A stretch of DNA of 43,434 nucleotides from Sulfurimonas sp. (GTDB lineage: Bacteria > Campylobacterota > Campylobacteria > Campylobacterales > Sulfurimonadaceae): positions 1 through 43,434 of the forward strand of contig JADGEZ010000019.1 of assembly GCA_016744115.1 (NCBI GenBank), given 5' to 3'. The stretch's first letter is position 1. Each line of letters begins with the position of its first letter. A model generated the notes under the pieces. That model did not search any database. It was not told the origin of the DNA and was given only the letters and a program-made list of their open reading frames with translations. The position numbers and the translations under genes are program-made. Below, piece by piece: positions 51-8,560 of this stretch.

Positions 51-375
51 TTTTTAATTTCTCACTTTTATCTTTAAATGTGTCTTTTTGTAAGGTAACT
101 ATTTATTCATTACCATTATAGTTGCTTCAACCTTAATAAACGGTATTAACAAGCGACAATTATGCACCAATAAAAGAAGAAATAACACTAAATTTAGTAA
201 ATTATATGTCAAAATGCAATATTTTTAAGATATTTACAGTTTTTTAACTATTATCCTTAAAGAAAGAGTGTGCTGTTTATACATTTATCGCCGTTATTGA
301 GGCATAAGTGGTGTGTTAATTGTAGATATTCCATTAAAAGAGCATACTTTAGCTTAAAATTTGAGGGGAAAAATT
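51..375. other. Intergenic region upstream of intI; possible attI region
   Basis: A 325-base A+T-rich region separates two divergent genes. In mobile and chromosomal integrons the attI site and cassette promoter lie here, between intI and the first cassette. I searched both strands for the GTTRRRY core and found no exact match. The nearest are GTTAATA (minus strand, around 150) and GTTAATT (plus strand, 314-320), both off consensus. An imperfect inverted repeat (TTATcGCC, eight-base loop, GGCATAA) lies at 285-307. No open frame of note was seen. The attI assignment is unproven. Confidence 0.35.
115..120 (-). promoter_or_regulatory. Candidate -10 box for the leftward gene at 1-50
   Basis: The minus strand reads TATAAT here, about 65 bases upstream of the ATG at 50. 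No good -35 is present, which is usual for sigma-70 promoters in Campylobacterota. If the left flank is a cassette array, this would be in the position of a cassette promoter (Pc). Confidence 0.35.
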
Positions 376-1142
376 ATGGAAGTTAAAAAAAAATTACTTG
401 ATATTGTACGAGATACTATACGGTTTAAGCATTATAGTTTATCTACTGAGCGGACTTATATACACTGGATAAAGCAGTATATATTTTTTCACAACAAGAA
501 GCACCCAAAGGATATGGCTAAAGCGGAAATTGAAGAATATTTAACATCATTGGCTATTGAAAATAGAGTTGCGTCGAGTACACAAAACCAAGCTTTTAGT
601 GCTTTGTTGTTTCTTTATAAAGAGGTTCTAGGGATTGATACTAGTGAGTGGAATATCCAAGCTTTGAGAGCTAAAGAGAGAAAAAGAATACCTGTTGTCT
701 TGACAAAGGATGAAGTGAATTTAGTTATGGAGAATTTAAAAGGGATTTATAAGCTTATTACTATGCTTATGTATGGTTGTGGTTTGAGAATGAATGAGGT
801 AATTAAACTTAGAGTAAAAGATATTGACTTAGGATTTGACAAAGTATATATATTCGATTCTAAATCCTTGCAAGATAGGGTAGTGCCATTGCCTTTGAAA
901 ATAAAACAGAGAATAGCTGTTCAGTTAGAGGCGACAATGGAGCTACATGAAAAAGATATAAAAGATGGATTTGGTGCTGTTTATTTGCCCTATGCTTTAG
1001 AGAAAAAATATAAAAATTCTCAATTTGAAACTAAATGGCAATATCTTTTTCCTGCTGTAAACACATCAACAGATCCACGAACAAAGGTAAAAAGAAGACA
1101 TCATATACTTGCAAATACTCTAGGGCGAAACATAAAGTTATA
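376..1142 (+). pseudogene. intI: Truncated integron-type tyrosine recombinase (IntI-like)
   Basis: The reading frame aligns by eye with integron integrases through most of its length. The N-terminal SAM-like domain has YSLSTERTYIHWIKQYIFFH, followed by PVVLTKDEV, YGCGLRMNEV with the first catalytic Arg, and the IntI-specific insert around GAVYLPYALEKKY, then STDPRTKVKRRHH. The start is the ATG at 376, preceded by GAGGGG; an in-frame TTG at 361 is less likely. Similarity ends near TLGRNIKL (about 1138). The remaining roughly 85 residues, carrying the HxxR, H/W and nucleophilic Tyr motifs, are absent. From there the frame reads antisense through a FecR gene until a stop at 1257. The motif corresponding to the beta2-3 lysine reads SLQDR rather than GSKDR. 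The product cannot be an active recombinase. Confidence 0.85.
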
Positions 1143-2094: not shown

Positions 2095-3408
2095 TTAAAA
2101 TATTTTTATTAAACCAGCAGAAGCTGTATATTTTATATAAGAGAATCTTTTTTGATTAGAAACAACATATTCATACGATGTTGAGAGTTTGAGTTTGAGT
2201 TTATGCCTAAGTTTTATTGTTAAGTCTGCACTTGTATATCCACTAATCTCTTCTCTTACTGACTCAAAACCATGGCTGTAATCTTTATAGTTTCTCCCTC
2301 TTATTTTAGAAAAAAAATCTAAACTATAATTCATTCGGTATTGATTTACATATCTTATATTTGCTTCTAGTTCATCAAAATCAACATATATATTATCGGC
2401 AGATTTTTTTCTTTCTGCAATTACTAGGATATTTGCTTCCACAAAGGAACGAGGAGAAAGTATGTTTTGTAAACCATATGATAGCTCATATCTCGTAGCA
2501 TCAAGCCCTTTTTGTTTTGCTTGTGCAAAGTCTTTAGATTGGTATTTTGCATAGAATAGACTGCGGATAGTGTTTGAGTGTTTAAGCTCGAATTTAGGTT
2601 GAAGATAAATACTAGAGAGGTAACTTTTCCCTCCTAAATTCAGAGTATTGAGACCAAGTATGAGTTCAGTTATAAAGTAAGTTTCTTGATAGACTAAGCT
2701 AGGCATGTATGTTAAAGAGATTAAATCGCAATCATCATAATTTGTATAATCTTTGATGTAAGCATCAAGAGTATTTTTAAGAGAAAAACCATTTTTATCA
2801 CCTATATCATAAATATTGACAATATTCACATAGCCTTGAATTGCAATGTCAGATATTTGAGCAAGCTTAGATAATTTAGCTCTTGCATAGTAGTAATCAT
2901 CAATAGAACCATAGTTAATGTTTGAATCATAAAGAACATCTAGCATGAGAGTAGCATATGTAAACGATTTTTTCTGTACCTTAGATACTCTTGAGAGTGC
3001 TAACTCAAGATTTGTTCGGATATTTTGGGGGAGACTTTGAGTATCTAAAACTTCTTTAAAAGCATTATGTGAATCTTCATACATTTTGAGGATATAGTAA
3101 GTTCGTCCCATCTCGATTTTGTTTCGTAAATTTGCAGTATCTAGTAACTCAACTCTCTCAAAAGCAGCTATAGCATGTTCATAATGCCCTGTTTCATAAG
3201 CACTCCGACCAAAGTAAAAGTTAAACTTAACATTTGAGAGCTTTTTGAGATAAATAGTGTAAAAGAGTTCATAAGAGCTTGTAAAATCTTTATTTTTATA
3301 GAAGACCATAGCCTTAGCATAGGTATCATCTAACTTTATCTTTTGTGAAGCATGTGCTGAAAAAAAATAAAGAGAAAATATCAAAAAGATAATGCTTAGT
3401 TTTTTCAT
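2095..3408 (-). CDS. Secreted TPR protein with a C-terminal outer-membrane beta-barrel-like region
   Basis: The N-terminus is a signal peptide ending near FFSAHA. Residues of about 25-150 form TPR-like helix pairs (YAKAMVFYKNKDFTSSYELF, FYFGRSAYETGHYEHAIAAF, EMGRTYYILKMYEDSHNAF). The remainder, about 150-437, alternates polar and aromatic residues in strands, ends in Phe, and looks like an outer-membrane barrel. The start has AGGAAAACAA directly before the ATG. It lies 18 bases after the FG-GAP gene's stop and ten before FecR, so the three are probably co-transcribed leftward. The architecture recalls TPR-plus-barrel surface-export proteins (Slam/DUF560 type), but that is a fold-level guess. 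It is the only one of the three genes that looks complete. Confidence 0.65.
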   Translation of the reverse strand: MKKLSIIFLIFSLYFFSAHASQKIKLDDTYAKAMVFYKNKDFTSSYELFYTIYLKKLSNVKFNFYFGRSAYETGHYEHAIAAFERVELLDTANLRNKIEMGRTYYILKMYEDSHNAFKEVLDTQSLPQNIRTNLELALSRVSKVQKKSFTYATLMLDVLYDSNINYGSIDDYYYARAKLSKLAQISDIAIQGYVNIVNIYDIGDKNGFSLKNTLDAYIKDYTNYDDCDLISLTYMPSLVYQETYFITELILGLNTLNLGGKSYLSSIYLQPKFELKHSNTIRSLFYAKYQSKDFAQAKQKGLDATRYELSYGLQNILSPRSFVEANILVIAERKKSADNIYVDFDELEANIRYVNQYRMNYSLDFFSKIRGRNYKDYSHGFESVREEISGYTSADLTIKLRHKLKLKLSTSYEYVVSNQKRFSYIKYTASAGLIKIF

Positions 3409-3426: not shown

Positions 3427-5932
3427 TTAAGGTACTTGGTTAGCATCTTTGATAAACATATATGCCTTACCTTTAGATGTTTGAGTGCTTGAGTCTGTAT
3501 TGTTATAGTCCATACCAATGGCTAAGCTATCATCACTAAGCGATACAAACCTAGCAAAATTTTTGTAAATTCCTGCATCATCTGCATAAATTTTATCTAT
3601 TTGTCTAAATATGTCCCCTTCTCTTTTAAACATATAAGCACTCCCCGCATTTGGTGCAATAGTGCTATCTCCACTTGCTCCAATGAGTAGATAATCTCCC
3701 TTTAGAGATACTGAGCTACCAAAAAGAGCATTTGATGTGACATCATGAACTTGAATTTTTGTCATTTGAGTAACATCATTTCCATTTTTTTCAAAGATAT
3801 AAACACTTCCCTTTTCATCATTATTTGGAGCACCAATAGCTATGTAATCACCACTGATAGAAACACAAGAAGAGAAGTTATCATCATTCACACCATCTTG
3901 TGCTTCTATACTTTTAATGCGGCGAATAGGATTTTTGGAAGAATTTTGATCTATTTTATAAAGATAGGCTTGTCCTTTTGAATCTCCTCTTGCATTTTTT
4001 GTGCTTCCTACAACAATAAAATTTCCATCTATTGATACAGACTTACCAAAGAAATTATTATCCTGATATGCGGGAGAGCTTAGTATCCCAATTGGACGAA
4101 TAGTACCATTTGCATCTTTTTTGAACAATGTTGCATTACCAGCATGAATGAATGTTCCAATATTTGTATGATCTGCACCAATAACTATATAGTCTCCACT
4201 CATAGAAACAGCATTAGCAAATTTATCGTTTTGTGTACGGTTATTATCCATAAAGAGAGTTACAAAGGTATCAGAATCTTTTTTAAAAAGATACGCTTCT
4301 CCGTTAAAATCTTCATTTTCAGCACCAACCAGGATATAATTTCCATCAATGGCTACTGAATTTCCAAAGTTAGCATTTGCACTTGGGATAGGAGCTTTGA
4401 GTTTTGAAATAAGTGTATGAGTGCCATTATATAATTTTTTGTATAAATAAGCAGCACCAGAATTAGAGTGGAGTGTATCTTCTCTTGGAACACCTATTAT
4501 AGTATAAAGCCCATCAGTTGCTACTGCATATGCAAAAGCATCATCTTGTCTTGCATCATTTGCTACAAAACTTTCCATCGCCAAATATGTTTTATCTACT
4601 ACTTGTATACTTATATCTAAGGCATTAGTATTACTATGAGAATCAGTTGCTGTGAGAGTTATATGATAGTTATTATTACTTTCATTATCTAATAAATTTT
4701 CATGATCGGGAGCTTGTTTAAAAGAAAGACTGTCATTTTCAAATGAAAAGAGAGAACTATCTAAACCACTCAAAGAGTAATTAATAATGCTATCAAAGGT
4801 ACTAGAAGAAACAAATCCATTAAAAACAGGGCTATTGGAAAAGGATTCATTTATATTTAGTGTAGTAAATGGAGCTATGTAAAAGTAGGGTTTTTCTTCT
4901 GCTTCTATATCAAATAGATAAGCACTTCCAGTATTTTTTGCACTTGTATTTTTATGATGAGCACCAACGACAAAGAAGTTTTTACTTATCGCAGTAGATA
5001 TACCGAAGTTATCACCTTCACTATTATTATGAGCCGTTATTTTTTTTTATCAGTTTTATACTTGTATCAGACTCTTTTTGGAATAGATAGGCATATCCAG
5101 CATTTTCTTTAATAAGTCCAATATCCTCTCCATACGCTCCTATAAGTATATATTGAGAATCAATTGAAACAGAACTGCCAAAATAGCTTTGAGCAAAGTC
5201 ACCTTCTAATGTTTTTAAAAGGCTCAGGCTCGAACTAGAGTTTATTTTGTAAATATAGGCTAAGCCTTTCCCTCCAACAGTACTATTTTGATCAGCTCCA
5301 ACGACAATATAATCTCCACTAATGGAAACAGAAGTCCCAAAGCTGTTATCTTTAGAGTCTATCGGTTTAAATATTTCTCCTTTATTTACCATATCAGTAT
5401 TGCTATCCAGAGTAAATAAATAAGCGGCACCAGTTTTATCTCCTATAACTATATACTCAGTATCTATTGATACTGAAAATCCAAAATCATCATCCCTTGT
5501 GCTAGTAGGAGCTTCAAGTTTAGCAATCTGATTTGCTTTTTTATTTACCGTATCAATCTTAAATAGATAGGCACTCCCTCTATTTTTATATGAATCAGCA
5601 CCTATAATAATATAGTTTCCATCTATGGAAACGGCAGATCCAAAATTATCATCGCGTTTGAGATTAGCTGCTTCAATTATATCTACTTGATTTATAATGT
5701 CACTAGAGCTTATTTCAAATAAATAATCAAGTGTTTGAAGAAGTCTTGCTAGATTTATAGCTGTATCTATATCATTTGGAAATAGCGTATAAGGAGTAGT
5801 TATTTTTTTTTGAACTATAGCTTTACCAATAGGGAAATTACCTATATAAAATGTTACATCATCCCATACTCTACATGTGTATTCGCCTTTAGCATTTGTT
5901 TTATTGGTGTCCCCAGATTCACATTTATGCAT
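3427..5932 (-). pseudogene. FG-GAP repeat surface protein, frameshifted in an A9 tract and lacking a signal peptide
   Basis: Two open frames (5932-5027 and about 5040-3427) are pieces of one gene. With one base removed from the nine-A run (plus-strand T's at 5040-5048), translation runs without interruption for 834 codons across the join (LIKK then ITAHNNSEGDNFG). The product carries about 12 FG-GAP-like repeats, for example DNFGSAVSIDGNYIIIGA, of the type that builds beta-propellers in integrin-like surface proteins. A cadherin-like segment sits in the middle (around 4600-4800; ITLTATDSHSNTNALDISIQ). The first residues (MHKCESGDTNKTNAKGEY) start inside a domain and have no signal peptide, so the 5' end also looks lost. 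The 4773 start sometimes suggested is an internal TTG. Either a decayed gene, a phase-variable gene currently off, or a sequencing error. Confidence 0.75.
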
Positions 5933-6031: not shown

Positions 6032-7945
6032 ATGAATCATCTTAGAACTTTAGATGCAAATGAAACACTTGAACTTATATTTGTTTATTTAACCCAAGTC
6101 TCATCTCTTAAAAAACATGAAGACATTATTAAAGTATTAGCAAACATGGGAAAAGCACTTACTAGTGCTGATAGATGTAGTGTTTGGGTTGTAAGTGATG
6201 ATAAAAAGACTATATGGACGAAAGTAGCCCATGGCATTGACGCTATAGAAATACCAACAGACTCTGGGATAGTTGGTTCAGCTATCACAAATAAAGAAAA
6301 GATACTTATTAATGATGTGTATAAAGATAAAAGATTTAACTCTACTATAGACAAAAAAACAGGCTACCGCACAAAAAGTATGATGGTAATACCTATGTTT
6401 GATAATGATAATGAAATTATTGGTGCATTCCAAGTTATAAACTCTAAAAGTATAAAAGGAGTATTTAATGATAGTGATATGTCGAGATTGATGTTATCAA
6501 GTACTTATGCAGCAGAAACGCTTATATCTACGAAATTAGCTCATGAAATTGTAGAAACGCAACGAGAAGTTGTTTTCACTATGGGTGCTATCGGTGAAAG
6601 TCGTTCTAAAGAAACTGGAAATCATGTAAAAAGAGTTGCAGAATACTCTAAGATCTTGGCATTAGCGTATGGCATTAACAAAGATGAAGCGGAACTTTTA
6701 AAGCAAGCTAGCCCTATGCACGATATAGGTAAAATTGCTATACCCGATGCAGTGCTAAATAAACCAGGTAAATTAAATGTGCAAGAGCGTCGTATCATGG
6801 AAACACACGCTAAACTTGGTTATAACATTATAAGTAGTTCAAACCGTCCACTTCTTAAGGCCGCCTCTATTGTGGCTCACGAACATCATGAAAAGTGGGA
6901 TGGAACAGGTTATCCACAAGGAAAAATTGCAGCTGACATACATATTTATGGGCGTATAACAGCAGTTGCTGATGTGTTTGATGCTGTAGGCTCAGATAGA
7001 GTATATTAAAAAGCTTGGGATGATGAAAAGATATTTAAACTCTTTAGAGAAGAGAAGGGAAAACATTTTGACCCTGACTTAGTAGATATATTTTTTGAAA
7101 ATTTAGATAAATTTCTTGCGATAAGAGATACTTTTAAAGACGAATACCCTAAAAAAGAAGAATATACAGGAAATTGTATAAAAATTCTTGGAGCATTTGG
7201 AACAAAAGCACAAGGTCATGGGACAAGTTCTTTTTATCTAAATGAAAGAAATGTAATTGATGCTGGTAATCTTTTAGATAGTCTCAAAGAAGAATCAGCA
7301 AATATTCATAAAATATGGATAACACATACTCATTTAGACCATATATGCGATATAGCCTATATAGTAGATAATTACTATCCACTTTTAAAAAAACCTATAG
7401 TTATATGTGCCTTAGCCCCAACCATAGAAGCTATACAAACTCATTTTTTAAATGATATTATATGGCCTGATTTTTCTAAGATAAAATTAAAAGATGGTTC
7501 AGCCAATTGTATAGAATATATGGAGATTGATTTTGATAAAGAATATATGCTCTCACATAATGAGTCAATTAAGGCATTTAAAACAGATCATACCGTACCT
7601 AGTTGTGGATATATCTACAAAAAAGAGAACACTTCAGTGCTCATAACAGTAGATACTTATTCTTTAGAAAATGCAATTAAAATAATTAATGATGATAATG
7701 CAATTAAATCCATTATTGTAGAATGCTCTTTTCCCTCAAGTATGCAAATTCTTGCAAGGGAGAGTAAACACCTCACTCCTAAATTATTATCAGAGATGTT
7801 AGGTGATGTTCAAAGAGAAGATATACAATTATATATCAACCATATAAAGCCCTCTTTTGTTGATGTAATAACTCAAGAGTTAGAACAATATTGCAAAAAA
7901 TGGAAGCCAATTATTTTGATGGATGGAGAAATTATAAAATTTTAG
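6032..7945 (+). pseudogene. GAF-HD-GYP-class II cyclic nucleotide phosphodiesterase fusion with an in-frame stop
   Basis: A 637-codon frame is broken only by TAA at 7007-7009 (codon 326). Domains in order are a GAF sensor (about 20-170), an HD-GYP c-di-GMP phosphodiesterase (about 180-345; HDIGK near 230, HHEKWDGTGYP near 285) and a metallo-beta-lactamase-fold domain (about 380-637) with ITHTHLDHI near residue 432. That motif matches class II cAMP phosphodiesterases. After SDRVY the frame continues KAWDDEKIFKLFREEKGKHF, the normal HD-GYP tail, so the stop is probably a Lys AAA changed to TAA. The second fragment alone could start at an ATG at 7520, but would then lack the HxHxDH motif. RBS: AAGGAA before the ATG at 6032. 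No membrane segments are seen, so the intact product would be cytosolic. As it stands, a GAF-HD-GYP protein cut within the C-terminal HD-GYP helices could be made. Confidence 0.8.
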
Positions 7946-8001: not shown

Positions 8002-8078
8002 GCCGACATAGCTCAGTTGGCTAGAGCAGCTGATTTGTAATCAGCAGGCCCGGGGTTCAAATCCTCGTGTCGGCACCA
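8002..8078 (+). tRNA. tRNA-Thr(UGU)
   Basis: A complete cloverleaf: acceptor GCCGACA pairs with TGTCGGC, the D-arm has GCTCAGTTGG, the anticodon loop is TT-TGT-AA on a GCTGA/TCAGC stem, and the T-arm has GGTTCAAATCC. CCA is encoded. First gene behind the consensus promoter. Confidence 0.96.
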
Positions 8079-8135
8079 TTGAAATTTGAATATTAGAAAC
8101 AGTGTTAGACCAGAAAAAATATAATTACATATGAT

Positions 8136-8220
8136 GGTGGGATAGTCAAGTGGCCAACGACGGCAGACTGTAAATCTGCTCCCTATGGGTTCAGAGGTTC
8201 GACTCCTCTTCCCACCACCA
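8136..8220 (+). tRNA. tRNA-Tyr(GUA)
   Basis: Class II tRNA with a long variable arm (about CTCCCTATGGGTTCAGAG). The acceptor GGTGGGA pairs with TCCCACC, the anticodon GTA sits in GACTGTAAATC, and the CCA is encoded. It is 57 bases after tRNA-Thr and eight bases before tRNA-Gly, in the same likely transcript. Confidence 0.95.
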
Positions 8221-8228
8221 CCTTTGAT

Positions 8229-8304
<76 letters not shown>

Positions 8305-8418
8305 TCAAACTTCTGGAAGCTGAAGTACAATTTTTACCTTACTTCAATAAAACTATATAAATTTCTATATAGCTATTCTAAACACTATAAAACTAATAAA
8401 ATTGTTAGATAAAGAATT

Positions 8419-8560
8419 ATTCAATTATTGCTTCTATTCATCTCTATTGCTGTCGTGGCTCAGGGGTAGAGCACTTCCTTGGTAAGGAAGAGGCCGTGGG
8501 TTCAATTCCCACCGTCAGCACCATAAAGTAAGTTTCTCTTATTTTAAGCAATAATTGAAT
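8419..8560. repeat. 15-base perfect inverted repeat enclosing tRNA-Thr(GGU)
   Basis: ATTCAATTATTGCTT at 8419-8433 is the exact reverse complement of AAGCAATAATTGAAT at 8546-8560. The 112 bases between hold the whole tRNA-Thr(GGU) gene. In RNA the arms could pair and present the tRNA at the tip of a stalk, a plausible processing signal upstream of tuf. Alternatively, they mark an insertion. The right arm abuts the tuf promoter. Confidence 0.75.
8449..8523 (+). tRNA. tRNA-Thr(GGU), with an acceptor-stem mismatch
   Basis: The anticodon loop TT-GGT-AA on a CTTCC/GGAAG stem gives Thr(GGU). The T-arm GTGGGTTCAATTCCCAC is intact and CCA is encoded. The acceptor strands GCTGTCG and CGTCAGC pair at six of seven positions; position 5:68 is U-U. 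The rest of the molecule is regular, so it is probably functional. Second tRNA-Thr in the cluster, just ahead of tuf, as is common in this phylum. Confidence 0.93.

Follow-up and report, generated by a model that had tools for sequence, protein, structure and literature searches.

Bacteria of the genus Sulfurimonas carry a conserved protein in which a GAF domain, an HD-GYP domain and a class-II cyclic-nucleotide phosphodiesterase are joined in a single chain, and in the window analysed here, an entire contig of 43,434 bases, the gene for this protein is interrupted by one in-frame stop codon. On balance, we consider it probable, if far from assured, that what the window carries is, in this assembled genome (2.05 Mb in 74 contigs, estimated to be 99.99% complete), an inactivated copy of an enzyme whose intact form is gated by cAMP and resets itself, and that the module to which it belongs is being lost. 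In the proposed mechanism, an external signal would act on the product of the neighbouring upstream gene, a CHASE2 class III cyclase, causing cAMP to be made; binding of cAMP to the GAF domain of the dimer would switch on hydrolysis of c-di-GMP; and the C-terminal domain would degrade the cAMP, ending the pulse and resetting the protein. More tentatively, we propose that Sulfurimonas and its relatives possess a self-limiting switch that has not been described, in which a membrane cyclase would supply cAMP to a partner that senses it, destroys c-di-GMP and then destroys cAMP, the fusion occurring in both domain orders and the switch being in the course of loss in the window lineage.

Known connections between cAMP and c-di-GMP in bacteria involve separate proteins, or cAMP-sensing enzymes such as Bd1971. 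If the proposal holds, one conserved protein hydrolysing both messengers beside a cyclase gene would represent a compact, testable timer circuit, and a role would be assigned to a conserved tuf-side locus throughout Sulfurimonas, which is common at hydrothermal vents. The stop codon is in itself of little importance, except insofar as it shows that the module can be dispensable.

Conservation of the fusion and position of the stop codon

The window frame (6032-7945) extends for 325 codons to a TAA at 7007-7009 and for another 311 codons to a terminal TAG (Table 1). Pfam detects GAF and HD_5/HD 5' of the stop and PDEase_II 3' of it, all above cut-offs, and these assignments, together with the reading of the frame, bear out an earlier note, made from the letters of the window, in which one frame was said to join the three domains across a single TAA. 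The stop does not lie between domains: phmmer aligns window residues 9-325 with residues 7-322 of PmGH, a GAF-HD-GYP c-di-GMP phosphodiesterase of Persephonella marina (4mcw), and the first 45 residues past the stop with 324-368, where the PmGH HD-GYP domain ends, so that the TAA sits within HD-GYP.

DNA matching the window gene was found in 130 of the 135 genomes of the genus, often in HD-GYP paralogues only, and 60 loci were retrieved for comparison of gene architecture. Both halves lie in one open frame at 52 of these loci, a few of which are ended by contig edges; intact homologues of the kind that the note had recommended seeking thus exist, and the join of the two halves is real rather than a chance event. 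Two overlapping genes are present at five loci, a frameshift within the metallo-beta-lactamase (MBL) domain at one, and the MBL gene alone at two. Within the genus, the fused copy closest to the window gene shares 73% DNA identity with it, and a search of genome contigs returned 20 loci, none exceeding 62% identity across the whole second half, and no genome of the same species. Among the 47 complete, N-free fused copies that form the alignment set, the stop column is occupied by Lys without exception, the codon alternating between AAA and AAG.

Homologues encoded as two separate genes, which the earlier note would have counted as refuting its reading, do exist in five species (L078, L089, L116, L123, L125), although as overlapping genes that the fused forms outnumber by about 10:1. 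The first of these genes retains the HD-GYP tail, and the second begins at its own start beside the MBL domain, inside the 3' end of the first, an arrangement in which translational coupling is probable. A natural gene split was rejected as the origin of the window stop, given that in all five natural splits the break coincides with the domain boundary and the second start overlaps the first gene, whereas the stop falls inside HD-GYP. In a tree of the MBL domain, some inner branches of which are weak, solo copies are nested, strongly supported, among fused ones, and split copies arise at more than one point; loss, and fission or fusion, have therefore happened repeatedly.

Table 1. Features of the window around the interrupted gene, in order of position.
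Position	Strand	Feature	Basis
81..1136	+	Integrase gene, partial second copy, ending at the FecR breakpoint	95.7% identical to the longer copy on contig 44
1133..2087	-	FecR-domain gene, interrupted at about 1133-1136; the cyclase is next in relatives	
2095..3408	-	TPR protein of the TPR-FecR-CHASE2 cyclase cluster	
3427..4773	-	FG-GAP repeat protein, C-terminal piece	
5027..5932	-	FG-GAP repeat protein, N-terminal piece	Divided from 3427-4773 by a frameshift near 5045
6032..7006	+	First half: GAF (residues about 30-160) and HD-GYP (about 190-325), cut by the stop	Pfam; phmmer to PmGH 4mcw, E=1.5e-85; metal ligands kept
7007..7009	+	In-frame TAA; Lys in 47/47 complete fused homologues; equivalent to PmGH K317	Alignment
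7010..7144	+	C-terminal rest of HD-GYP, beyond the stop	phmmer, residues 1-45 against 4mcw 324-368; PmGH alpha11-alpha12
7166..7945	+	Class-II cyclic-nucleotide phosphodiesterase domain (MBL fold) and terminal stop	PF02112; model pLDDT 90; yeast PDE1 Z 25.8, 27% identity
about 7325-7342	+	HTHLDH motif of the MBL domain	
7520..7522	+	Earliest in-frame ATG/GTG/TTG past the stop; 3' of the HTHLDH motif	ORF reading
8002..8523	+	tRNA-Thr, Tyr, Gly, Thr, 5' of tuf; syntenic anchor	

Gene neighbourhood and condition of the window locus

Most copies of the gene, that of the window included, are located 5' of the genes for tRNA-Thr, Tyr, Gly and Thr and of tuf. Upstream DNA could be read at 54 loci, and at 33 of these the gene is preceded by a cyclase gene of the same orientation, separated from it by a median of 13.5 bp (measured at 26 of the 33, with an outlier of 1.65 kb at G078); for one of the 33, G026, Pfam confirmed both a CHASE2 and a class III cyclase domain. 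The G078 cyclase is itself split into two frames (G078:C34:9307-9838), possibly another case of decay of the module. Five other loci have a divergent TPR-FecR cluster upstream instead, followed in G103, G109 and G018 by a CHASE2 cyclase after FecR, and the window has this TPR-FecR layout with an FG-GAP gene in between. A class III cyclase is present in 52 of the 57 genomes that possess the GAF-HD-GYP-PDEase_II locus, the window's own genome being counted outside this group, as against 19 of the 78 that do not (Fisher p=1.3e-15, ignoring kinship). As the fusion is real, has been conserved and has a cyclase gene linked to it, the tie between two second messengers that had first been read from the domains is well grounded.

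Profile searches of the window genome returned no cyclase of class III (PF00211), class I (PF01295) or the CYTH type (PF01928), the controls elsewhere responding, and a protein search of the same genome with the G103 cyclase, run without a positive control, gave no match; one cNMP-binding protein is encoded. The FG-GAP gene (3427-5932) has an apparent single frameshift, which adjoins a run of A. Near the contig end, a truncated tyrosine integrase copy, whose identity to the contig 44 copy was calculated over 1,058 alignment columns, is joined to the cut FecR gene; insertion, rearrangement and misassembly would each account for this join. With no class III cyclase found in the genome and with FecR and FG-GAP both broken, the module is most likely being lost, and the clustering of lesions in one functional unit favours decay after loss of the cyclase. 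The link between decay and cyclase loss is suggestive only: no class III cyclase was detected in 17 PDEase_II genomes, including that of the window, and five of the others keep GAF-HD-GYP-PDEase_II, as an open fusion in G029, G082, G123 and G134 and at a contig end in G090, so cyclase loss need not bring decay. Stand-alone PDEase_II genes are also found in genomes where no class III cyclase was detected, mostly beside tuf (L151, L152, L153, L154, L126).

Whether the stop reflects such decay depends on whether it is real, and the possibility that it is a sequencing, assembly or strain-mixture error, with an intact gene in the cell, is unlikely yet deserves serious weight. The far half has neither another stop nor an indel, deviates at 1 of 74 near-invariant columns, and has diverged normally for its first half, ranking 34 of 48 in a regression of second- on first-half divergence. 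The ratio of second- to first-half terminal branches is about 1.54 for the window, below the ratio of medians over all sequences (about 1.75), and differences from near relatives concentrate at third codon positions in both halves. Relaxed constraint past the stop is therefore absent, a state that a very young pseudogene would share, and it follows either that decay set in very recently or that the stop is erroneous. The preservation of the downstream frame remarked on in the earlier note is upheld, the conserved columns and the divergence rank giving no indication of long decay. The neighbouring lesions, a frameshift by a run of A and a repeated-integrase join near the contig end, are also of the assembly type. 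Against an error, however, the apparent lesions cluster at 1.1-7 kb, within one signalling cluster, whereas 8.5-43 kb is free of obvious breaks at the level of the ORF list rather than of gene-by-gene comparison with homologues; moreover, single substitutions are a less usual kind of error in short-read assemblies. We therefore infer that the stop is a real mutation, and recent decay of the window copy is most likely.

Predicted substrates and the effect of the stop

The PDEase_II match in the window (PF02112) scores 51.9 bits against a cut-off of 23.7, and all residues of the MBL metal site are kept (H432, H434, D436, H437, H520, D541 and H604, plus H580). Among PDB sequences, the MBL part is matched best by the yeast cAMP phosphodiesterase PDE1 (E=7e-08). 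Structural comparison was based on a model of the MBL domain by itself, the model of the whole read-through protein being too poor (pLDDT 64, pTM 0.46), and here too PDE1 had the top Z (25.8; rmsd 2.3 over 251 residues, 27% identity). YhfI ties with it by Z (25.2, 18% identity) and RNase Z is also close, so the substrate is not fixed by fold alone. The domain also has HxHLDH, which PMC9293780 gives as the motif of typical class-II enzymes. From these features, the domain is probably a cAMP phosphodiesterase.

A different substrate, for example a cyclic mononucleotide other than cAMP or a product of c-di-GMP degradation, seems to us rather improbable. Such a substrate would be in keeping with the solo copies kept at the tuf locus where no cyclase was detected (G016, G060, G073, G113, G139), and with the appearance of Apyc1, an anti-Pycsar nuclease, among the structural matches. 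It sits poorly, however, with the combination of PF02112 and a typical HxHLDH motif, and with the adjacent cyclases, which have Lys within GMLDKYIGD and, in those where YT(V/I)IGDGVN could be located, Thr within it, a pair that we take to denote the adenylate type of class IIIb.

cAMP gating is suggested for the intact enzyme by the GAF domain, whose closest relatives after PmGH are the GAFs of the Anabaena adenylyl cyclase CyaB2 (E=8.3e-29) and those of PDE5/PDE2; the PmGH GAF, for which no reported ligand was found, is at least as similar to the window GAF as that of CyaB2. The contacts of the CyaB2 GAF with cAMP include R291, T293, I308, D356 and N359 (PMC4411481). R48 and D107, equivalent to R291 and D356, are invariant, T293 and I308 correspond to the conservative pairs S/T50 and V/I65, and N359 is mostly Thr. 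Gating of c-di-GMP enzymes by cAMP has precedents in Bd1971 and Lcd1 (PMC6717892).

The HD-GYP domain can be compared with PmGH residue by residue, as the offset of 9 between window numbering and that of the PmGH paper is constant and was verified at all metal ligands. The eight ligands (E194, H198, H230, D231, H259, H285, H286, D314) and the GYP motif (G293-Y294-P295) are identical in the window and the 47 homologues. In all of these sequences, Ser192 replaces the putative catalytic Asp (PmGH D183), an Ala mutant of which has strongly reduced activity in PmGH; this Asp may not be needed in every HD-GYP enzyme, but the presence of Ser means that c-di-GMP hydrolysis by the fusion is not assured. 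The stop column corresponds to PmGH K317, which hydrogen-bonds a guanine of c-di-GMP, and K317A alone does not substantially lower activity. PmGH ends in two additional helices, the second of which packs on helices 6 and 10; by alignment, the last two HD-GYP helices are present in intact homologues and fall past the stop in the window. The truncated product would accordingly retain every metal ligand and lose part of the fold, and would be expected to be less stable.

Two further ways in which the window gene might function despite its stop, both raised in the earlier note, find no support. Suppression of the stop, by readthrough or otherwise, yielding short and long proteins, is very unlikely: the frame is kept past the stop and the far half is apparently constrained, but TAA is normally an efficient terminator, and none of the other homologues has a stop at this site. 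Equally hard to credit is separate production of the second enzyme by internal initiation, as in the five two-gene species, for although such natural versions exist and an ATA codon preceded by AGGA lies near 7178, at about the start of the domain, no in-frame ATG, GTG or TTG occurs within 7010-7519, a stretch that contains the HTHLDH motif, so that a restart at a usual codon cannot rescue the second enzyme; the two-gene species, moreover, keep the HD-GYP tail in the first gene and a start beside the domain in the second, and the window first half would still miss the end of HD-GYP. Reinitiation at ATGATG (7020-7025) was also considered and rejected as out of frame.

Known systems and other domain arrangements

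PmGH shares with the Sulfurimonas protein the order GAF-HD-GYP over 317 residues (E=1.5e-85) and the eight metal ligands, but terminates with HD-GYP, whereas the Sulfurimonas gene adds a class-II phosphodiesterase and has Ser in place of D183. With the class-II phosphodiesterases (yeast PDE1, Aliivibrio fischeri CpdP; PF02112), it has in common the Pfam family, the HxHLDH motif and the MBL fold, PDE1 giving the top Z. The Sulfurimonas enzyme, unlike the class-II members described in the consulted portion of PMC9293780, for which no HD-GYP fusion is mentioned there, is fused to HD-GYP in either order. A literature search, with subscription journals mostly outside its scope, found no report of HD-GYP fused to a cAMP phosphodiesterase, and the conserved GAF-HD-GYP-PDEase_II fusion appears to be undescribed.

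Bd1971, a Bdellovibrio c-di-GMP phosphodiesterase of the EAL type that is activated by cAMP, resembles the proposed model in that cAMP controls c-di-GMP breakdown within one protein; however, it senses cAMP through a CRP-like domain and uses EAL, and no cAMP-degrading domain is described for it in the abstract of PMC6717892. Leptospira Lcd1 (GAF and GGDEF, cited in PMC6717892) and Anabaena CyaB2 exemplify cAMP-sensing GAF domains in nucleotide-signalling enzymes, as proposed here. Their output is synthesis of c-di-GMP or cAMP, in contrast to the predicted breakdown of both by the Sulfurimonas fusion.

The reverse order, MBL-GAF-HD-GYP, defines a second family of about 760-815 residues, mostly encoded beside a CHASE2 cyclase, and the association of phosphodiesterase with cyclase thus does not depend on one fusion. 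Proteins of this order adjoining CHASE2 class III cyclases include those at L135:3102-5522, L136:3409-5772, L137:3263-5605 and L149:2499-4778, and the carriers are several relatives within and outside the genus. In G110 and G084, MBL and GAF-HD-GYP are adjacent genes clustered with those for TPR, FecR and cyclase. G110 also has a single frame of 1106 residues (L144:5741-9058) matching FecR and CHASE2 cyclase, neighbours elsewhere that are fused here. Finally, G050, a genome from a different taxonomic family within the bacterial order of the window, has two PDEase_II-like genes in tandem after a GAF-HD-GYP gene (L148:1481-4211).
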